Assembly: GCA_021201135.1 (NCBI GenBank)
Contig: JAJQGT010000006.1
Location: 715,710-779,709 of the forward strand
From: Oscillospiraceae bacterium
Lineage (GTDB): Bacteria > Bacillota > Clostridia > Oscillospirales > Ruminococcaceae
DNA: 64,000 bases
Direction of reading: 5' to 3'
Positions 20,534 to 32,208 of the stretch are shown piece after piece. The notes under the pieces were generated by a model. That model was given only the letters and a program-made list of their open reading frames with translations. It made no database searches and had not been told where the DNA came from. The position numbers were made by a program, and so were the translations under genes. Numbering within the stretch: position 1 is the first letter of the stretch; every line of letters begins with the position of its first letter.

Positions 20534-20929
20534 TCATGTTGCGAAATACGAGTTATAGAAATCAGCCACCGTAGATATGCACTTGTCCTCGGGATAATGC
20601 TTGATATTGCCGGTGACAAGAGTTGCATTGCAGAATTTTGCGACTTCGTAAAACTTGCGGTCGCTTTCATCTGTGAACCTGACATCCGGCAACGGATTCG
20701 CTATAACCGAGATGCCTGACAACGTCAGCTCCTCCAGAAGCCAGTCCACCTGCCATTTATCAAACTTAAACTTTGGTCTTGACAGAACCGAACGATATTC
20801 TTCGAGAAGCCGATAATCATAGCACAGTTTGAAGCGCCCCGCCAGGGTTGCGGAAACTATTGCCGACGGCTTGCTCCCCTGCGACCAGAGAGCGGAGACG
20901 AGTACGTTAGTATCCAGAACGATAAACAC
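20534..20929 (-). CDS. PIN-domain toxin of a type II toxin-antitoxin system
   Basis: MFIVLDTNVLVSALWS...; D..F.E.A....A.LVTGNIKHYP. Confidence 0.85.
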   Translation of the reverse strand: MFIVLDTNVLVSALWSQGSKPSAIVSATLAGRFKLCYDYRLLEEYRSVLSRPKFKFDKWQVDWLLEELTLSGISVIANPLPDVRFTDESDRKFYEVAKFCNATLVTGNIKHYPEDKCISTVADFYNSYFAT

Positions 20930-20933
20930 TTCC

Positions 20934-21209
20934 CTATTCTCCTCTTCTTGCCGCCTGAATTTCAGCCTCTATTTCTTCATCAGACATATAACCTTCGGAA
21001 GCCGCCCGGGAACGCATGCTGTTGAAGGCAATCATGGCTTTAGCCTGTCTGACTGCCAGAAGCATCAAATCAAGGTTGTCACCGGAAACATCCATCATCA
21101 GTGCGGCGGGCTTGCCGTTGTTTGTGATGACAACCTCATTACCTTTGGCAAGATTGTCCCACATGCTCTTCGATTCGGTTCTCAGATCTCTTACTGAATA
21201 GAAATTCAT
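20934..21209 (-). CDS. Phd/YefM-family antitoxin
   Basis: NFYSVRDLRTESKSMWDNLAKGNEVVITNNGKPAALMM; immediately upstream of PIN gene. Confidence 0.85.
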   Translation of the reverse strand: MNFYSVRDLRTESKSMWDNLAKGNEVVITNNGKPAALMMDVSGDNLDLMLLAVRQAKAMIAFNSMRSRAASEGYMSDEEIEAEIQAARRGE

Positions 21210-23592: not shown

Positions 23593-23621
23593 TTGACACT
23601 TTGACTTTAACATGATATAAT
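23593..23621 (+). promoter_or_regulatory. Perfect consensus sigma-70 promoter for the glutamate synthase operon
   Basis: TTGACA (23593-23598) - 17 nt - TATAAT (23616-23621). Confidence 0.85.
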
Positions 23622-23631
23622 TTTTCGTAAT

Positions 23632-23698
23632 GAGCAAAGGCGTTCATATAGGGGATAGTCTACCCTTTTGAAGGAAACGTCTTTGCTTTTTTTCTTAA
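23632..23698 (+). promoter_or_regulatory. Compact leader RNA: hairpin with U-tract, candidate glutamine-riboswitch-like or ANTAR-target attenuator
   Basis: agcaaaggCGTTCAtataggggatagtctacccttttGAAGGAAACGtctttgctttttttctt: 12-bp outer stem, inner GGG/CCC hairpin, CGTTCA/GAAGG-AACG pairing as in glnA-type motifs, immediately after predicted TSS. Confidence 0.55.
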
Positions 23699-23716
23699 AC
23701 GAAAGGAAGAGAAGTC

Positions 23717-24808
23717 ATGAAGTTGGAAGGTCAGGTACGCATACCTTCGGGCTGTGCAATATCCGCCGTAATTTCAAAGGACGGCAGAAAGATGAGCGGA
23801 GACGCCATTATCAAGAGCATGGTACCTATGCACGACCGCTCAAACGGTCTGGGAGGCGGATTTGCCGCATACGGTATTTATCCGGAATATAAGGAATTCT
23901 TCGCCCTGCATATTTTCTACAACGACAATAACGTCAGGATGGAATGCGAGAATTTACTCAAGGATGGATTCGAGATTATCAAATCCGAGAGCATCCCGAT
24001 AAGAAAGACTCCGAAAATCTCGGACGTTCCGCTTATCTGGAGATACTTCGTTGCTCCGATGTCGTCGGTGCTGTCAAGATTGCATGTCGACGAAAAAGAA
24101 TATGTTGCGGAAACGGTCATGAAGATTAACTCCCAGATTAACGGCGCATATGTCTTCTCATCCGGAAAGAATATGGGCGTATTCAAGGCTGTCGGCTACC
24201 CCGAGGATGTCGGCTATTTCTACAGGCTCGACGAATACGAGGGCTACTGCTGGACGGCTCACGGAAGATATCCGACGAACACCCCCGGCTGGTGGGGCGG
24301 CGCTCACCCGTTTGCGCTCCTTGATTACACAATCGTCCACAACGGCGAGATTTCTTCATACGACGCCAACCGCCGCTATATAGAAATGTACGGCTACAAG
24401 TGCACACTGCAGACCGATACCGAGGTTATCACATATATTGCCGATTATCTTCTCAGAAAACAGGGCTTGACCCTTGAGGAGACCGCCTCGGTTATCGCGG
24501 CTCCCTTCTGGTCGACCATTGAGTCGAAATCGGAAGAGGAAAAGAAGAAGCTGAGCTACCTAAGAACCGTTTACTCGAGCTTACTCGTCACGGGACCTTT
24601 CTCGATAGTTTTGGGGTTCGAAGGCGGACTGATGGCTCTTAATGACAGACTGAAGCTTCGGTCGATGGTAACGGCAGAGAAGGACGATCTCGTGTTCGTA
24701 GCAAGCGAGGAATCGGCGATAAGGGTTATGTGCCCCGATGCGGAGAATGTTTATGCTCTGTCGGGCGGCGAGCCGATTATCGTCAGAGTTGAGGAGGGGA
24801 AATACTGA
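23717..24808 (+). CDS. Glutamate synthase glutamine-amidotransferase subunit (GltB1-like, class II GATase)
   Basis: SGCAISAVISKDGRKMSG; GYCWTAHGRYPTNTPGWWGGAHPFALLDYTIVHNGEISSYDANRRYIEM. Confidence 0.88.
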   Translation: MKLEGQVRIPSGCAISAVISKDGRKMSGDAIIKSMVPMHDRSNGLGGGFAAYGIYPEYKEFFALHIFYNDNNVRMECENLLKDGFEIIKSESIPIRKTPKISDVPLIWRYFVAPMSSVLSRLHVDEKEYVAETVMKINSQINGAYVFSSGKNMGVFKAVGYPEDVGYFYRLDEYEGYCWTAHGRYPTNTPGWWGGAHPFALLDYTIVHNGEISSYDANRRYIEMYGYKCTLQTDTEVITYIADYLLRKQGLTLEETASVIAAPFWSTIESKSEEEKKKLSYLRTVYSSLLVTGPFSIVLGFEGGLMALNDRLKLRSMVTAEKDDLVFVASEESAIRVMCPDAENVYALSGGEPIIVRVEEGKY

Positions 24809-26313
24809 TGGCTATAAATTATGTAAACCCCGAATTTGAGGTAGTAAGGAATCCCAACCGCTGTATAGCGTGCAGGGTCTGCGAGCGTCAGTGCTCAAAC
24901 GGCGTTCACAGCTTCGACCCCGAAACGGGTACAATGATGTCGGACGAGACAAAGTGCGTCGACTGCCAGAGATGCGTGGCACTTTGCCCGACAAGAGCTT
25001 TAAAAATTGTCAAGAACGAGTGCCAGCTCCGTGAAAACGCCAACTGGCAACAGGACACTATCTATGAAATTTACAAGCAGGCGGGAAGCGGAGGAGTTCT
25101 TCTTTCGTCTATGGGCAACCCGAAGCCGCTCCCTGTTTACTGGGACAAAATTCTTATAAACGCTTCGCAGGTTACGAATCCCCCTATCGACCCGTTAAGA
25201 GAGCCGATGGAGACAAAGGTATTCCTCGGCAAGAAGCCGACAATGCCCGAAAGAAACCCCGACGGAAGCCTCAAGACCGATCTGGCTCCTCAGCTCGAGC
25301 TTTCGATGCCGGTCATGTTCTCGGCGATGAGCTACGGCTCCATCAGCTACAACGCACACGAGAGCCTTGCAAGAGCCGCAGAAAATCTTGGCATCTACTA
25401 CAACACCGGTGAGGGCGGACTTCACGAGGACTTCTATAAGTACGGCGCCAACACCATTGTCCAGGTTGCATCCGGTCGTTTCGGCGTTCATGAGGATTAC
25501 CTCAGTGCGGGTGCCGCAATCGAGATTAAGATGGGTCAGGGTGCAAAGCCGGGCATTGGCGGACATCTTCCCGGAAAGAAGATCGTCGGCGACGTCTCGA
25601 GAACAAGAATGATTCCCGAGGGCTCGGACGCTATCTCCCCCGCCCCGCACCACGATATCTACTCTATCGAGGACCTGAGACAGCTTGTCTACTCTCTGAA
25701 AGAAGCGACTCAGTACACAAAGCCGGTTATTGTAAAAGTAGCGGCTGTACATAACATCGCCGCAATCGCAAGCGGTATCGCAAGAAGCGGTGCCGACATC
25801 ATCGCAATCGACGGCTTCAGAGGCGGAACCGGTGCGGCTCCGACAAGAATCAGAGACAACGTCGGTATCCCGATTGAACTGGCTCTTGCTTCCGTTGACC
25901 AGAGGCTCCGTGACGAGGGAATCAGAAACAACGTATCATTGGTTGTCGGCGGAAGTATCCGCTCGGCTTCGGACGTTGTAAAGGCTGTAGCCCTCGGCGC
26001 TGACGCCTGCTATGTTGCAACCGCCGCACTTCTGGCTCTCGGATGCCACCTCTGCAGAACATGTCACACCGGCAACTGCAACTGGGGCATTGCAACCCAG
26101 AAGCCGGAGCTCGTCAAGAGACTTAACCCGGATATCGGCTCACAGAGGCTTATCAATCTCATGACCGCATGGCAGCACGAGATCAAAGAGCTCATGGGCG
26201 GTATGGGTATAAACTCGATTGAGGCTCTGAGAGGAAACAGACTGATGCTCAGAGGAGTAAACCTCAACGAGAAAGAACTCGAGATACTCGGTATCTCGCA
26301 TGCGGGAGAGTGA
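24808..26313 (+). CDS. Archaeal-type glutamate synthase FMN domain (GltB2-like) with N-terminal ferredoxin domain
   Basis: CIACRVCERQC / CVDCQRCVALCP; MSYGSISYNAHESLARAAENLG; IAIDGFRGGTGAAPT; LGCHLCRTCHTGNCNWGIATQ. Confidence 0.93.
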   Translation: MAINYVNPEFEVVRNPNRCIACRVCERQCSNGVHSFDPETGTMMSDETKCVDCQRCVALCPTRALKIVKNECQLRENANWQQDTIYEIYKQAGSGGVLLSSMGNPKPLPVYWDKILINASQVTNPPIDPLREPMETKVFLGKKPTMPERNPDGSLKTDLAPQLELSMPVMFSAMSYGSISYNAHESLARAAENLGIYYNTGEGGLHEDFYKYGANTIVQVASGRFGVHEDYLSAGAAIEIKMGQGAKPGIGGHLPGKKIVGDVSRTRMIPEGSDAISPAPHHDIYSIEDLRQLVYSLKEATQYTKPVIVKVAAVHNIAAIASGIARSGADIIAIDGFRGGTGAAPTRIRDNVGIPIELALASVDQRLRDEGIRNNVSLVVGGSIRSASDVVKAVALGADACYVATAALLALGCHLCRTCHTGNCNWGIATQKPELVKRLNPDIGSQRLINLMTAWQHEIKELMGGMGINSIEALRGNRLMLRGVNLNEKELEILGISHAGE

Positions 26314-26747
26314 CGGATATGAAAAGAGTTTATGTAAACGAAAAATGGTGCCTTGGATGTCATCTCTGCGAGTATAACTGCGCTTTTGCAAACTCGGGAC
26401 TCAAGGATATGGCAAAGCTCAAGGGCAAGGAAATCTACCCGAGAATCAGGGTTGAGGGCGACGACAAGATTACTTTCGCAATCTCCTGCCGCCACTGCGA
26501 GGACCCGATATGCATAAAGAGCTGTATTTCGGGCGCACTCTCGAAGACTCCCGACGGAATGGTCGAAATCGACAAGTCAAGATGCGTCGGTTGCCTCACA
26601 TGCGTCCTCGTCTGCCCCTATGGCGCCGTTATTCAGGACGGCGACGGAGCGGTTCAGAAGTGCGAGCTCTGCCTTAAGAACTCATCGGGTGCTCCGGCAT
26701 GCGTTGCCGGTTGCCCGAATAACGCGATTGTTTACGAAGAGAGGTGA
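26310..26747 (+). CDS. 4Fe-4S ferredoxin-type electron transfer protein
   Basis: CLGCHLCEYNC, CRHCEDPICIKSC, CVGCLTCVLVCP, CELCLK. Confidence 0.9.
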   Translation: MTDMKRVYVNEKWCLGCHLCEYNCAFANSGLKDMAKLKGKEIYPRIRVEGDDKITFAISCRHCEDPICIKSCISGALSKTPDGMVEIDKSRCVGCLTCVLVCPYGAVIQDGDGAVQKCELCLKNSSGAPACVAGCPNNAIVYEER

Positions 26748-27988
26748 GCGAAATGGCAAAGAAGTATGTTATCATCGGCAACGGAACCGCCGCTGTCGGC
26801 TGTATAGAGGGCATCAGGGCTAACGACAAAGAAGGCTCTATCACCGTTATTTCGGCTGAGAAGCACCCCGCTTATTGCCGTCCGCTTATCTCCTATTATC
26901 TTGAGGGCAAGGCTGTTCCCGAAAGAATGAGCTATCGCCCCGACGATTTCTATGACAAGAACGGCGTCAAGGTCATCTATGGTGAGACCGCCGAGAAGAT
27001 TGACTCTGACAAGAAGCAGGTAGTTCTCGGAAACGGAGAAAAAGTGGCTTATGACAGCGTATGCGTTGCCGCAGGCTCGAGACCGCTCGTGCCGCCTTTT
27101 GAAGGGCTCGACACTGTTCCAAAGAAGTTCCCCTTCATGACGCTTGACGACGCACAGAACCTCGAGAGTGCAATCTCCGAAGACAGCGATGTCTTCATCG
27201 TCGGTGCGGGACTTATCGGGCTTAAGTGCGCCGAGGGTCTTTACGGCAGGGTTAAATCCATCACCGTATGCGATCTGGCGGACAGGGTTATGCCGAGTAT
27301 TCTCGATGCCGAAACCGCCGAAATGATGAAAAAGCGCCTCGAAGACAACGGCTTGAAGCTGATGCTTTCCGACACCGCCACCAAGTTCGACGGCAACACC
27401 GCCTATATGAAGAGCGGGGCGGAGGTCAAGTTTGACGTTCTCGTTCTTGCTGTAGGCGTAAGAGCCAACATCTCTCTTGTAAAAGATGCGGGCGGCGACT
27501 GCGGAAGAGGCATAACGGTTGACAACCACATGGCAACGTCACTCCCCGACATCTATGCCGCAGGAGACTGCACGGAATCAATGGACTACTCCAGCGGAAC
27601 TGTAAAAGTAATGGCAATCATGCCGAACGCCTATATGCAGGGTCACTGTGCCGGCGAGAATATGGTGGGTAAAGATGTCACATTCGACAACGGCATTCCG
27701 ATGAATGCAATCGGGTTCTTCGGATTCCACGTTATGAGCGCCGGCACTCCCGACGGAGAACTCTATGAGGAGAAAACCGAATCGACCTCGAAGAAGCTCT
27801 TCACGAAGGACGACCGACTTGTAGGGTTCATTCTGGCGGGTGACACGACCCGTGCCGGAATTTATACAAATTTGATAAGAAACGGTATTTCTCTTAGCTC
27901 TATTGACTTTGATACCATAAAAACAGCTCCAAATATCTTTTCTTTTGGTCAAGAATACTGTAGAAATTCTCTCGGAGGTGTGGTATAA
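26744..27988 (+). CDS. NAD(P)/FAD-dependent oxidoreductase
   Basis: YVIIGNGTAAVGCIEGIRAN, VFIVGAGLIGLKCAEGL, PDIYAAGDCTE. Confidence 0.9.
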   Translation: MSEMAKKYVIIGNGTAAVGCIEGIRANDKEGSITVISAEKHPAYCRPLISYYLEGKAVPERMSYRPDDFYDKNGVKVIYGETAEKIDSDKKQVVLGNGEKVAYDSVCVAAGSRPLVPPFEGLDTVPKKFPFMTLDDAQNLESAISEDSDVFIVGAGLIGLKCAEGLYGRVKSITVCDLADRVMPSILDAETAEMMKKRLEDNGLKLMLSDTATKFDGNTAYMKSGAEVKFDVLVLAVGVRANISLVKDAGGDCGRGITVDNHMATSLPDIYAAGDCTESMDYSSGTVKVMAIMPNAYMQGHCAGENMVGKDVTFDNGIPMNAIGFFGFHVMSAGTPDGELYEEKTESTSKKLFTKDDRLVGFILAGDTTRAGIYTNLIRNGISLSSIDFDTIKTAPNIFSFGQEYCRNSLGGVV

Positions 27989-27989
27989 T

Positions 27990-28706
27990 ATGTTGATAGA
28001 TGTTTCAGGCTTGGGATTCAGCGAAATAAATTCCCTGATAAGAGCTCAAGGCGAGAGCTGTCACCTCACCGGATGCCTCAGCCAGAGGTTCATCGGTGCC
28101 GGTATGTCATACCGCGAAATCACGATTGACGGCACTCCCGGAAATGCGCTCGGCGCTTACCTCAACGGTGGCGAAATCACCGTCAACGGCAACGCCCAGG
28201 ACGCAGTCGGCGACACAATGAACGACGGCAAGATTATAATCAACGGTCACGTCGGCGACGCTGTCGGCTATGCTATGCGTGGCGGCGAGATCTACGTCAG
28301 GGACAGTGCGGGCTACCGTGCGGGAATCCACATGAAGCAATACAAGAAAAAGAGACCGGTTATGGTCATCGGCGGAAGAACCGGAAGCTTCCTCGGCGAA
28401 TATCAGGCAGGCGGCTTGATAATCGTTCTGGGACTTCACAAGGACGGCAAGCCCATCGTTGGCAACTTCCCGGGCACGGGAATGCACGGAGGCAAGCTGT
28501 TCTTAAGAAACGCAGAGGGTCTTTCGTTCCCGGCGCAGGTCAATGTGAACGATGCAACTGACGAAGACATGGCGGAAATTACGCCGTATGTCGAGAACTA
28601 CTGCAAGTACTTCGGTGCGGACATCTCGGAGATAATGAGTTCCCCGTTCACGGTTGTAACTCCTAACTCGAAGAACCCATACAAGCAGCTTTACGTTAAT
28701 AACTGA
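27990..28706 (+). CDS. Glutamate synthase GXGXG domain protein (GltB3-like)
   Basis: GNALGAYLNGGEITVNGNAQDAVGDTMNDGKIIINGHVGDAVGYAMRGGEIYVRDSAGYRAGIHMK; start MLIDVSG (27990). Confidence 0.88.
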   Translation: MLIDVSGLGFSEINSLIRAQGESCHLTGCLSQRFIGAGMSYREITIDGTPGNALGAYLNGGEITVNGNAQDAVGDTMNDGKIIINGHVGDAVGYAMRGGEIYVRDSAGYRAGIHMKQYKKKRPVMVIGGRTGSFLGEYQAGGLIIVLGLHKDGKPIVGNFPGTGMHGGKLFLRNAEGLSFPAQVNVNDATDEDMAEITPYVENYCKYFGADISEIMSSPFTVVTPNSKNPYKQLYVNN

Positions 28707-28732: not shown

Positions 28733-29941
28733 ATGAGCTATACTCCCGACGAAATTCTCCAGTATATCGAGGAAGAGGATGTTAAGTTCATCCGCTTGGC
28801 GTTCTGCGATGTTTTCGGAACACCGAAAAACATTTCCATCATGCCGAACGAGATGAGGCGTGCCTTCGAGCAGGGTATCTCGATAGATTCCTCCGCAATC
28901 GCCGGCTTCGGCGACGAAAGCCGCTCGGACATGCTCCTTATCCCCGACCCTTCGGAGATATCCATTCTCCCCTGGAGACCGGAGCACGGAAGAGTCGTAA
29001 GAATGTTTTGCACCGTTTGCAACCCCGACAAAACGGTCTTTGAAGCGGACGCAAGAAGCTTGCTCAAGAAGACTGCGGAAGAGCTCAAAGCCGAAGGGTT
29101 CGAGTTCAATTTCGGTCCCGAGACGGAGTTTTATCTCTTCAAGCGTGACGAAAACGGCGAGCCCACGAAGATTCCCTATGACCATGCGGGCTATATGGAC
29201 ATAGCGCCCGAGGACAAGGGCGAAAACGTCCGCCGTGAAATCTGCTTAACACTTGAGCAGATGGGCATCGTGCCGGAGTCTTCCCACCACGAGGAGGGTC
29301 CGAGCCAAAATAAAATCAGCTTCAGATATTCCGACGCCCTCAAAGCCGCAGACCATGCGATTACATTCCGCTCTGTTGTAAAGACCATCGCCGCAAGGAA
29401 CGGGCTTGTTGCGGACTTCTCACCGAAGCCGCTTGACGGTCTTCCCGGCAACGGAATGCACATAAATATCTCCGCCGTATATAACGGCGAGGATGTCCTT
29501 CCTTACGCAACAGCGGGAATACTCAAACATATTTCCGAAATAACGCTGTTTTTAAATTCCCATCCCGATTCATACAAAAGATTCGGTGCAAACAAGGCAC
29601 CCCTCTATATATCCTGGTCGGAGCAGAACCGCTCCCAGCTCATAAGAATTCCCGCAACAAAGCGTGAATACAAGAGAGCGGAGCTAAGGTCTCCCGACCC
29701 GATGTGCAACCCTTATCTCGCACTTTTACTTCTCATGAAGGCTATGGCAGACGGAATCAGGAACAAGCTTCCCCTCTGCCCGCCGACAGACATAAATCTC
29801 TTCAAGGCATCGCCCAAGGAGCTTTCGGGCTTCGAAATGCTCCCAAGAAGCCTCAGCGAAGCCGTTACTGCGGCTCAGGACTCCGATTTCGTCAGAGCCT
29901 CGGTTCCGCAGTCGATAATCGACAACTACTCTTCAAGGTAA
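28733..29941 (+). CDS. glnA: Glutamine synthetase type I
   Basis: VKFIRLAFCDVFGTPKNISI, NFGPETEFYLF, HHEEGPSQNKISF, GNGMHINIS, ELRSPDPMCNPYLALLLLMKA. Confidence 0.95.
   Translation: MSYTPDEILQYIEEEDVKFIRLAFCDVFGTPKNISIMPNEMRRAFEQGISIDSSAIAGFGDESRSDMLLIPDPSEISILPWRPEHGRVVRMFCTVCNPDKTVFEADARSLLKKTAEELKAEGFEFNFGPETEFYLFKRDENGEPTKIPYDHAGYMDIAPEDKGENVRREICLTLEQMGIVPESSHHEEGPSQNKISFRYSDALKAADHAITFRSVVKTIAARNGLVADFSPKPLDGLPGNGMHINISAVYNGEDVLPYATAGILKHISEITLFLNSHPDSYKRFGANKAPLYISWSEQNRSQLIRIPATKREYKRAELRSPDPMCNPYLALLLLMKAMADGIRNKLPLCPPTDINLFKASPKELSGFEMLPRSLSEAVTAAQDSDFVRASVPQSIIDNYSSR

Positions 29942-29983: not shown

Positions 29984-32206
<2,223 letters not shown>

Positions 32207-32208
<2 letters not shown>

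Follow-up and report, generated by a model that had tools for sequence, protein, structure and literature searches.

The window, a stretch of 64,000 nucleotides from an Oscillospiraceae bacterium, carried a glutamate synthase/glutamine synthetase operon on the forward strand, preceded by a short leader. Glutamate synthase was split here into several subunit genes: the glutamine-amidotransferase subunit (GATase_2; 23717-24808), a catalytic (FMN) domain protein with 4Fe-4S (24808-26313), a 4Fe-4S protein and FAD/NAD oxidoreductase of the glt operon (26310-27988) and a GXGXG domain protein (27990-28706). These genes were followed by glnA, encoding glutamine synthetase (28733-29941), and by a gene for a NitR/AmiR-like ANTAR protein with a pseudo-receiver and a C-terminal ANTAR domain (29984-30595). 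The same gene string continued with pyrG, encoding the glutamine-hydrolysing CTP synthase (30595-32208), and a purF-type gene lay beyond it. The earlier note, made from the letters of the window, had described a glt/glnA operon with an ANTAR gene downstream of the leader; we found these genes on the same strand, with an ANTAR protein of 203 amino acids. Upstream, on the reverse strand, a small PIN-domain toxin-like gene (20534-20929) and an adjoining small Phd/YefM-like antitoxin-like gene (20934-21209) were recognized by eye from their translations.

The promoter scan revealed a sigma-70 promoter at 23593-23621 on the forward strand, with TTGACA (23593-23598), a 17-nt spacer, TATAAT (23616-23621) and an extended -10 TG. 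It matched the consensus at 12 of 12 positions, exactly as the earlier note had it, and was the top promoter-like match across the 11 kb scanned. The transcription start region was predicted from the -10 spacing to be 23627-23629. Homologous leaders were gathered from the same genus and family with the first operon protein (gltA-like) as the query, and a promoter-like pair matching at least 9 of 12 positions was present upstream of 74 of 75 of them, compared with 26% of shuffled controls. Most of the gathered leaders shared the block [A/G]TGARCAANGGCGTTCA a few bases 3' of the promoter; a variable loop came next, and then a complementary arm ending in a U-run. The conserved loop started 13-16 nt past the -10 element in 54 of 74 homologous leaders, which places its hairpin at the extreme 5' end of the RNA and leaves no space upstream for a second hairpin.

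The conserved hairpin, AUGAGC[AAAGGC]GUUCAU (23630-23647, forward strand), consisted of a 5-6 bp stem closing the hexaloop AAAGGC, whose first base is A and whose fourth is G. The family consensus was UGAGC or UGAAC paired with GUUCA around the loop AANGRY. An A at position 1 and a G at position 4 constitute the ANTAR signature in a hexaloop (PMC3369931), and the leader carried two elements of that published target definition, the A1/G4 hexaloop and a stem of 3 bp or more that overlaps an intrinsic terminator. From this conservation and the minimum free energy (MFE) fold, we propose the hairpin as an antiterminator and a candidate ANTAR binding site. Its anatomy also matched the minimal single-hexaloop ANTAR site, defined as one hexaloop bound by an ANTAR dimer (PMC8934654); such binding is predicted for the leader. 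The earlier note had likewise suggested an ANTAR antiterminator target; its kind was supported by covariation and genomic association, but the proposed target is the outer UGAGC[AAAGGC]GUUCA, not the inner loop chosen in the note.

Some of these bases also belonged to a strong intrinsic terminator. As the earlier note had stated, the promoter was followed by a 12-bp hairpin, formed by AGCAAAGgCGTT (23633-23644) and AACGtCTTTGCT (23676-23687), and then by seven U residues. The terminator 5' arm (23633-23648) overlapped the hexaloop and its 3' stem arm, and the terminator 3' arm (AACGTCTTTGCT) with the U-run occupied 23676-23693; between them lay a variable, unconserved apical hairpin (23650-23666), the one whose loop the earlier note had taken as the ANTAR hexaloop. 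The leader from 23626 to 23700 folded at -22.8 kcal/mol (z = -3.5 relative to shuffles). Since the terminator 5' arm is built from the hexaloop and its 3' arm, the two folds exclude each other. In the window transcript, the hexaloop hairpin was the MFE fold at lengths of 21-54 nt and the terminator displaced it from about 57 nt, which corrects the earlier idea of a terminator that folds as soon as the RNA emerges. Among the leaders of relatives, the hexaloop was present in the MFE fold of 53 of 55 partial transcripts and of none of the 55 complete ones. In its geometry, this predicted folding order corresponds to a switch that could be held by a protein.

Covariation in homologous leaders, on which the earlier note had made its reading depend, was present, and both helices showed compensatory changes. 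In a 38-sequence alignment, 94% of the cells of the hexaloop helix were paired, with double changes in three pairs, and sliding the partner reduced pairing to 44% or less. The terminator helix was paired in 95% of cells (at most 60% in slid controls), and 39 cells had changed on both sides, compared with 9.2 +/- 2.9 in shuffles. Since the first search pattern had required some of the conserved letters, we recounted on 74 loci outside the seed, with a covariance model that contained the terminator structure alone and none of the hexaloop stem pairs. The inner five hexaloop stem pairs were paired in 95% of cases there, compared with 28-47% when slid. A1, A2 and G4 were each present in 74 of 74 of these best model hits while N3, R5 and Y6 varied, although the model was trained on pattern-found leaders and its letter preferences therefore depend partly on the pattern. 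The partners of loop and terminator arm were AACGGC-GCCGTT, AATGGC-GCCATT, AAAGGT-ACCTTT and AAAGAC-GTCTTT; thus, loop positions 3, 5 and 6 co-vary with the terminator arm and A1, A2 and G4 stay fixed. Two leaders from the same genus (L028 and L017) had a 3' arm reaching a GCTCATTTTTT ending, which pairs with the 5' stem arm AATGAGC and not with the loop; the terminator register appears to be shifted in this sub-clade.

In published surveys, ANTAR targets are by definition dual stem-loops (PMC3369931; PMC8164766), with two hairpins separated by a short linker (PMC3369931). We found a single hexaloop in the leaders studied here. When stems of 3 bp or more were counted, a second A1/G4 hexaloop occurred in 9 of 55 leaders, compared with 8.2 expected from shuffled middles; for stems of 4 bp or more, the count was 5 of 55, compared with 3.6 expected. 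The frequency is that of chance. The leader could nevertheless be one of the published dual-hexaloop targets, with a second hairpin too degenerate to have been noticed. An example would be the inner GGGG-AUAGUC-UaCCC, in which A1 and G4 are present once G.U closure and a bulge are permitted. The earlier note had proposed this inner hairpin (GGGG-ATAGTC-TaCCC in DNA letters) as the ANTAR hexaloop. We consider this improbable, given the chance frequency of second hexaloops, the lack of space 5' of the first hairpin, and the inner hairpin itself, which is unclean and differs even among 95%-identical relatives. The leader of one locus (L179, reverse strand, near 1719) contained adjacent A1/G4 hexaloops, aaggc[AAAGGC]gtctt and then gagc[AAGGGG]gctc at the terminator apex, with a further AAAGGC hexaloop about 60 nt beyond; it lies upstream of a gene starting with MGTVTEYFGSMVFDD, probably a type III glutamine synthetase, and may be a dual-hexaloop ANTAR target divergent from a single-hexaloop one.

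A minimal glutamine riboswitch (glnA, Downstream-peptide or a new aptamer) that controls the terminator without a protein would suit the glutamine-centred regulon described below and the local CGUUCA...GAAGGAaACG resemblance. The earlier note had raised such an aptamer on account of this resemblance, but the Rfam 15 search of a 261-bp stretch gave no glnA or Downstream-peptide match at E <= 10, and across 20 related loci no riboswitch reached the gathering score. Below threshold, ncr982 matched best (22.7 bits, cut-off 50), a match that followed the promoter and terminator composition. Moreover, GAAGGA and the aptamer-like 3' side (GAAGGAAACG) were unconserved in relatives, conservation is confined to a hairpin of 18 nt, which is small for an aptamer, in an otherwise variable leader, and the motif tracks ANTAR genes. 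We therefore regard a riboswitch as very unlikely. Equally slight is the chance that TGARC-N6-GTTCA works as DNA, as an operator at +1 to +20 recognized by a repressor or activator, and that the terminator is incidental. The motif does form an imperfect dyad immediately 3' of the promoter, but in about 58% of distinct family leaders the DNA symmetry is broken by a retained G.U pair, the invariant A1, A2 and G4 of the central loop are not dyad-symmetric, and the same bases keep pairing with the distant terminator arm through compensatory changes. The LexA box is GAAC...GTTC, and the N6 spacing and the G.U asymmetry speak against a LexA-like operator. A short leader peptide (ATG AGC AAA GGC...) was also rejected, as its start codon is missing in many leaders (GCGAACAAAGG, GGAACAACGAC, CGAACAAAGG) and the RNA 5' end is too near for a ribosome site.

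Using a covariance model built on the terminator structure alone, we found the motif in 99 of 199 genomes of the family, in 69 of 388 sampled from the class and in 15 of 299 sampled from the phylum, with thresholds that differ among the three sets. Of 100 family hits of the model at E <= 1e-3, 67 had an ANTAR homologue encoded within 10 kb. The motif was present in 76 of 144 genomes with an ANTAR homologue compared with 5 of 55 without one (p = 5e-9, uncorrected for phylogeny). Two observations count against control by an ANTAR protein: some family members with glt and an ANTAR homologue had a motif-less leader (e.g. L054, L068 and L070), and two genomes about 98% complete had a motif hit and no detected ANTAR domain. 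In one of these two (G065), the contig that carries glt stops within the operon, before the ANTAR position. A second match in the window's own genome (contig 26, 28.4 bits, before pyruvate:ferredoxin oxidoreductase) had a stem of about 3 bp and no clear promoter, and we attributed it to chance.

The genes 3' of the motif were called by eye and by signature from recognizable protein starts. They comprised glt (gltA)/gltB, glnA followed by ANTAR, pyrG, carA-carB, asnB, purA, gdh and amtB; one motif-led purA was followed by a guaA-like gene, and nadE and dapF lay downstream in single cases. As called in this way, most motif-led genes serve to produce or consume glutamine, glutamate or ammonia; the regulon loci were partly picked for the absence of glt, and the gene tally is therefore not a frequency. 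The motif was also found upstream of a short unknown protein (GKPV..PCL.PV...) at two loci (L176 and L185). At L176, this gene lies after gdh and before a gatC-like reading frame, a context in which Glu-tRNA(Gln) amidotransferase may belong to the regulon. One 49.5-bit match (L166, genome G108) lay upstream of a glycoside hydrolase-like gene of the alpha-mannosidase type, an outlier among the nitrogen genes.

The protein encoded at 29984-30595 matched the ANTAR profile PF03861 at 45.3 bits (Pfam cut-off 27.3), and a genome search revealed it to be the only ANTAR domain protein of its genome. Its profile matched AmiR, Rv1626 and EutV (1qo0, 1s8n and 6wsh), with which it shares a receiver-like N-terminus, a coiled coil and the ANTAR fold. 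We compared it with the RNA-contact residues of EutV given in PMC8934654. Lys149, Glu160 and Met172 were kept and were invariant among 30 relatives, and Tyr164 was replaced by His, as in AmiR; Arg142 was replaced by Ile, which counts against our preferred explanation. In contrast to AmiR, Rv1626 and EutV, the protein has Asn in place of the receiver phosphoacceptor Asp54, as in at least 90% of the 30 relatives, and thus lacks the phosphoacceptor Asp of phosphorylation-driven regulators of the EutV type. This makes classical phosphorylation, and with it a two-component signal, unlikely; a ligand or a partner protein would be the better guess. Glutamine, 2-oxoglutarate and contact with glutamine synthetase or PII are candidate signals.

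Taken together, these features suggest that the leader attenuates transcription under the control of the ANTAR protein encoded in the operon itself, through single-hexaloop antitermination, a reading from sequence to which we assign a probability of roughly 0.85; within it, we infer the protein binding, the direction of control and the signal. While polymerase is leaving the promoter, the nascent RNA would fold at its 5' end into the small AAAGGC-hexaloop hairpin. The ANTAR protein, presumably active when glutamine or nitrogen is short, would bind the loop by A1/G4 recognition and hold the hairpin. Because the hexaloop and its 3' arm provide the bases of the terminator 5' arm, the held hairpin would block the terminator, and polymerase would read into glt-glnA-ANTAR-pyrG. 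When the protein is inactive, the 3' arm would emerge, the hairpin would unzip, the terminator would form and an RNA of about 65 nt would be released.

The wider proposal is somewhat less secure, but we think it probable from the comparison of genomes: a widespread, Clostridia-type ANTAR regulation in which a single 5'-terminal hexaloop seeds the terminator, a non-phosphorylatable NitR-like protein acts on it, and a glutamine regulon (GS, GOGAT, amidotransferases, ammonium transport and gdh) is controlled. Such leaders would indicate that many anaerobes, as a large group, share a regulon centred on glutamine. EutV antitermination was reported to need both hairpins, though each can be bound singly (PMC8934654), and loss of one hairpin weakened or abolished function (PMC3369931, PMC8934654); under the current model, a single hexaloop is therefore not expected to suffice. 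With the EutV-RNA structure of 2022, its authors redefined the minimal ANTAR site as a single hexaloop and urged further work on sites of this type, leaving open why antitermination needs two hairpins and whether single-hexaloop sites exist (PMC8934654). If our reading is true, the two-hairpin requirement inferred from EutV would not be general. The leader and its relatives are natural, compact, covariation-supported single-hexaloop candidates that can be tested by a one-round transcription assay.

ANTAR antitermination of nitrogen genes is already known, and the system described here belongs to that known kind. We did not find the single-hexaloop, loop-in-terminator architecture or its breadth in the literature searched, most subscription journals being outside its scope. 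A 2012 study had predicted ANTAR targets before nitrogen genes, among them glutamate synthase in Desulfotomaculum (PMC3369931). The review passage on NitR of Clostridium saccharobutylicum in PMC6316151, citing Stutz et al. 2007, reports that this protein induces GS/GOGAT genes through antitermination under nitrogen limitation; the likeness is an ANTAR protein acting on GS/GOGAT genes, and the passage does not mention pyrG, carAB, asnB, purA, amtB or gdh, which form the wider set here. The glutamine riboswitches Glutamine-I (glnA) and Downstream-peptide share only a short local resemblance and the physiological theme, and differ in the Rfam result and in the conservation of the aptamer-like bases. 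The dual-hexaloop ANTAR targets of EutV/eut, AmiR/ami and NasR/nas (Ramesh et al. 2012, PMC3369931; Walshe et al. 2022, PMC8934654) have in common with our leader the A1/G4 hexaloop, the short stem and the C-G closing pair, together with terminator exclusivity, nitrogen genes downstream and an ANTAR protein encoded nearby. Whereas those targets have two hexaloops, the leader here has one, at the RNA 5' end, and the loop itself, not just a stem arm, lies within the terminator 5' arm.
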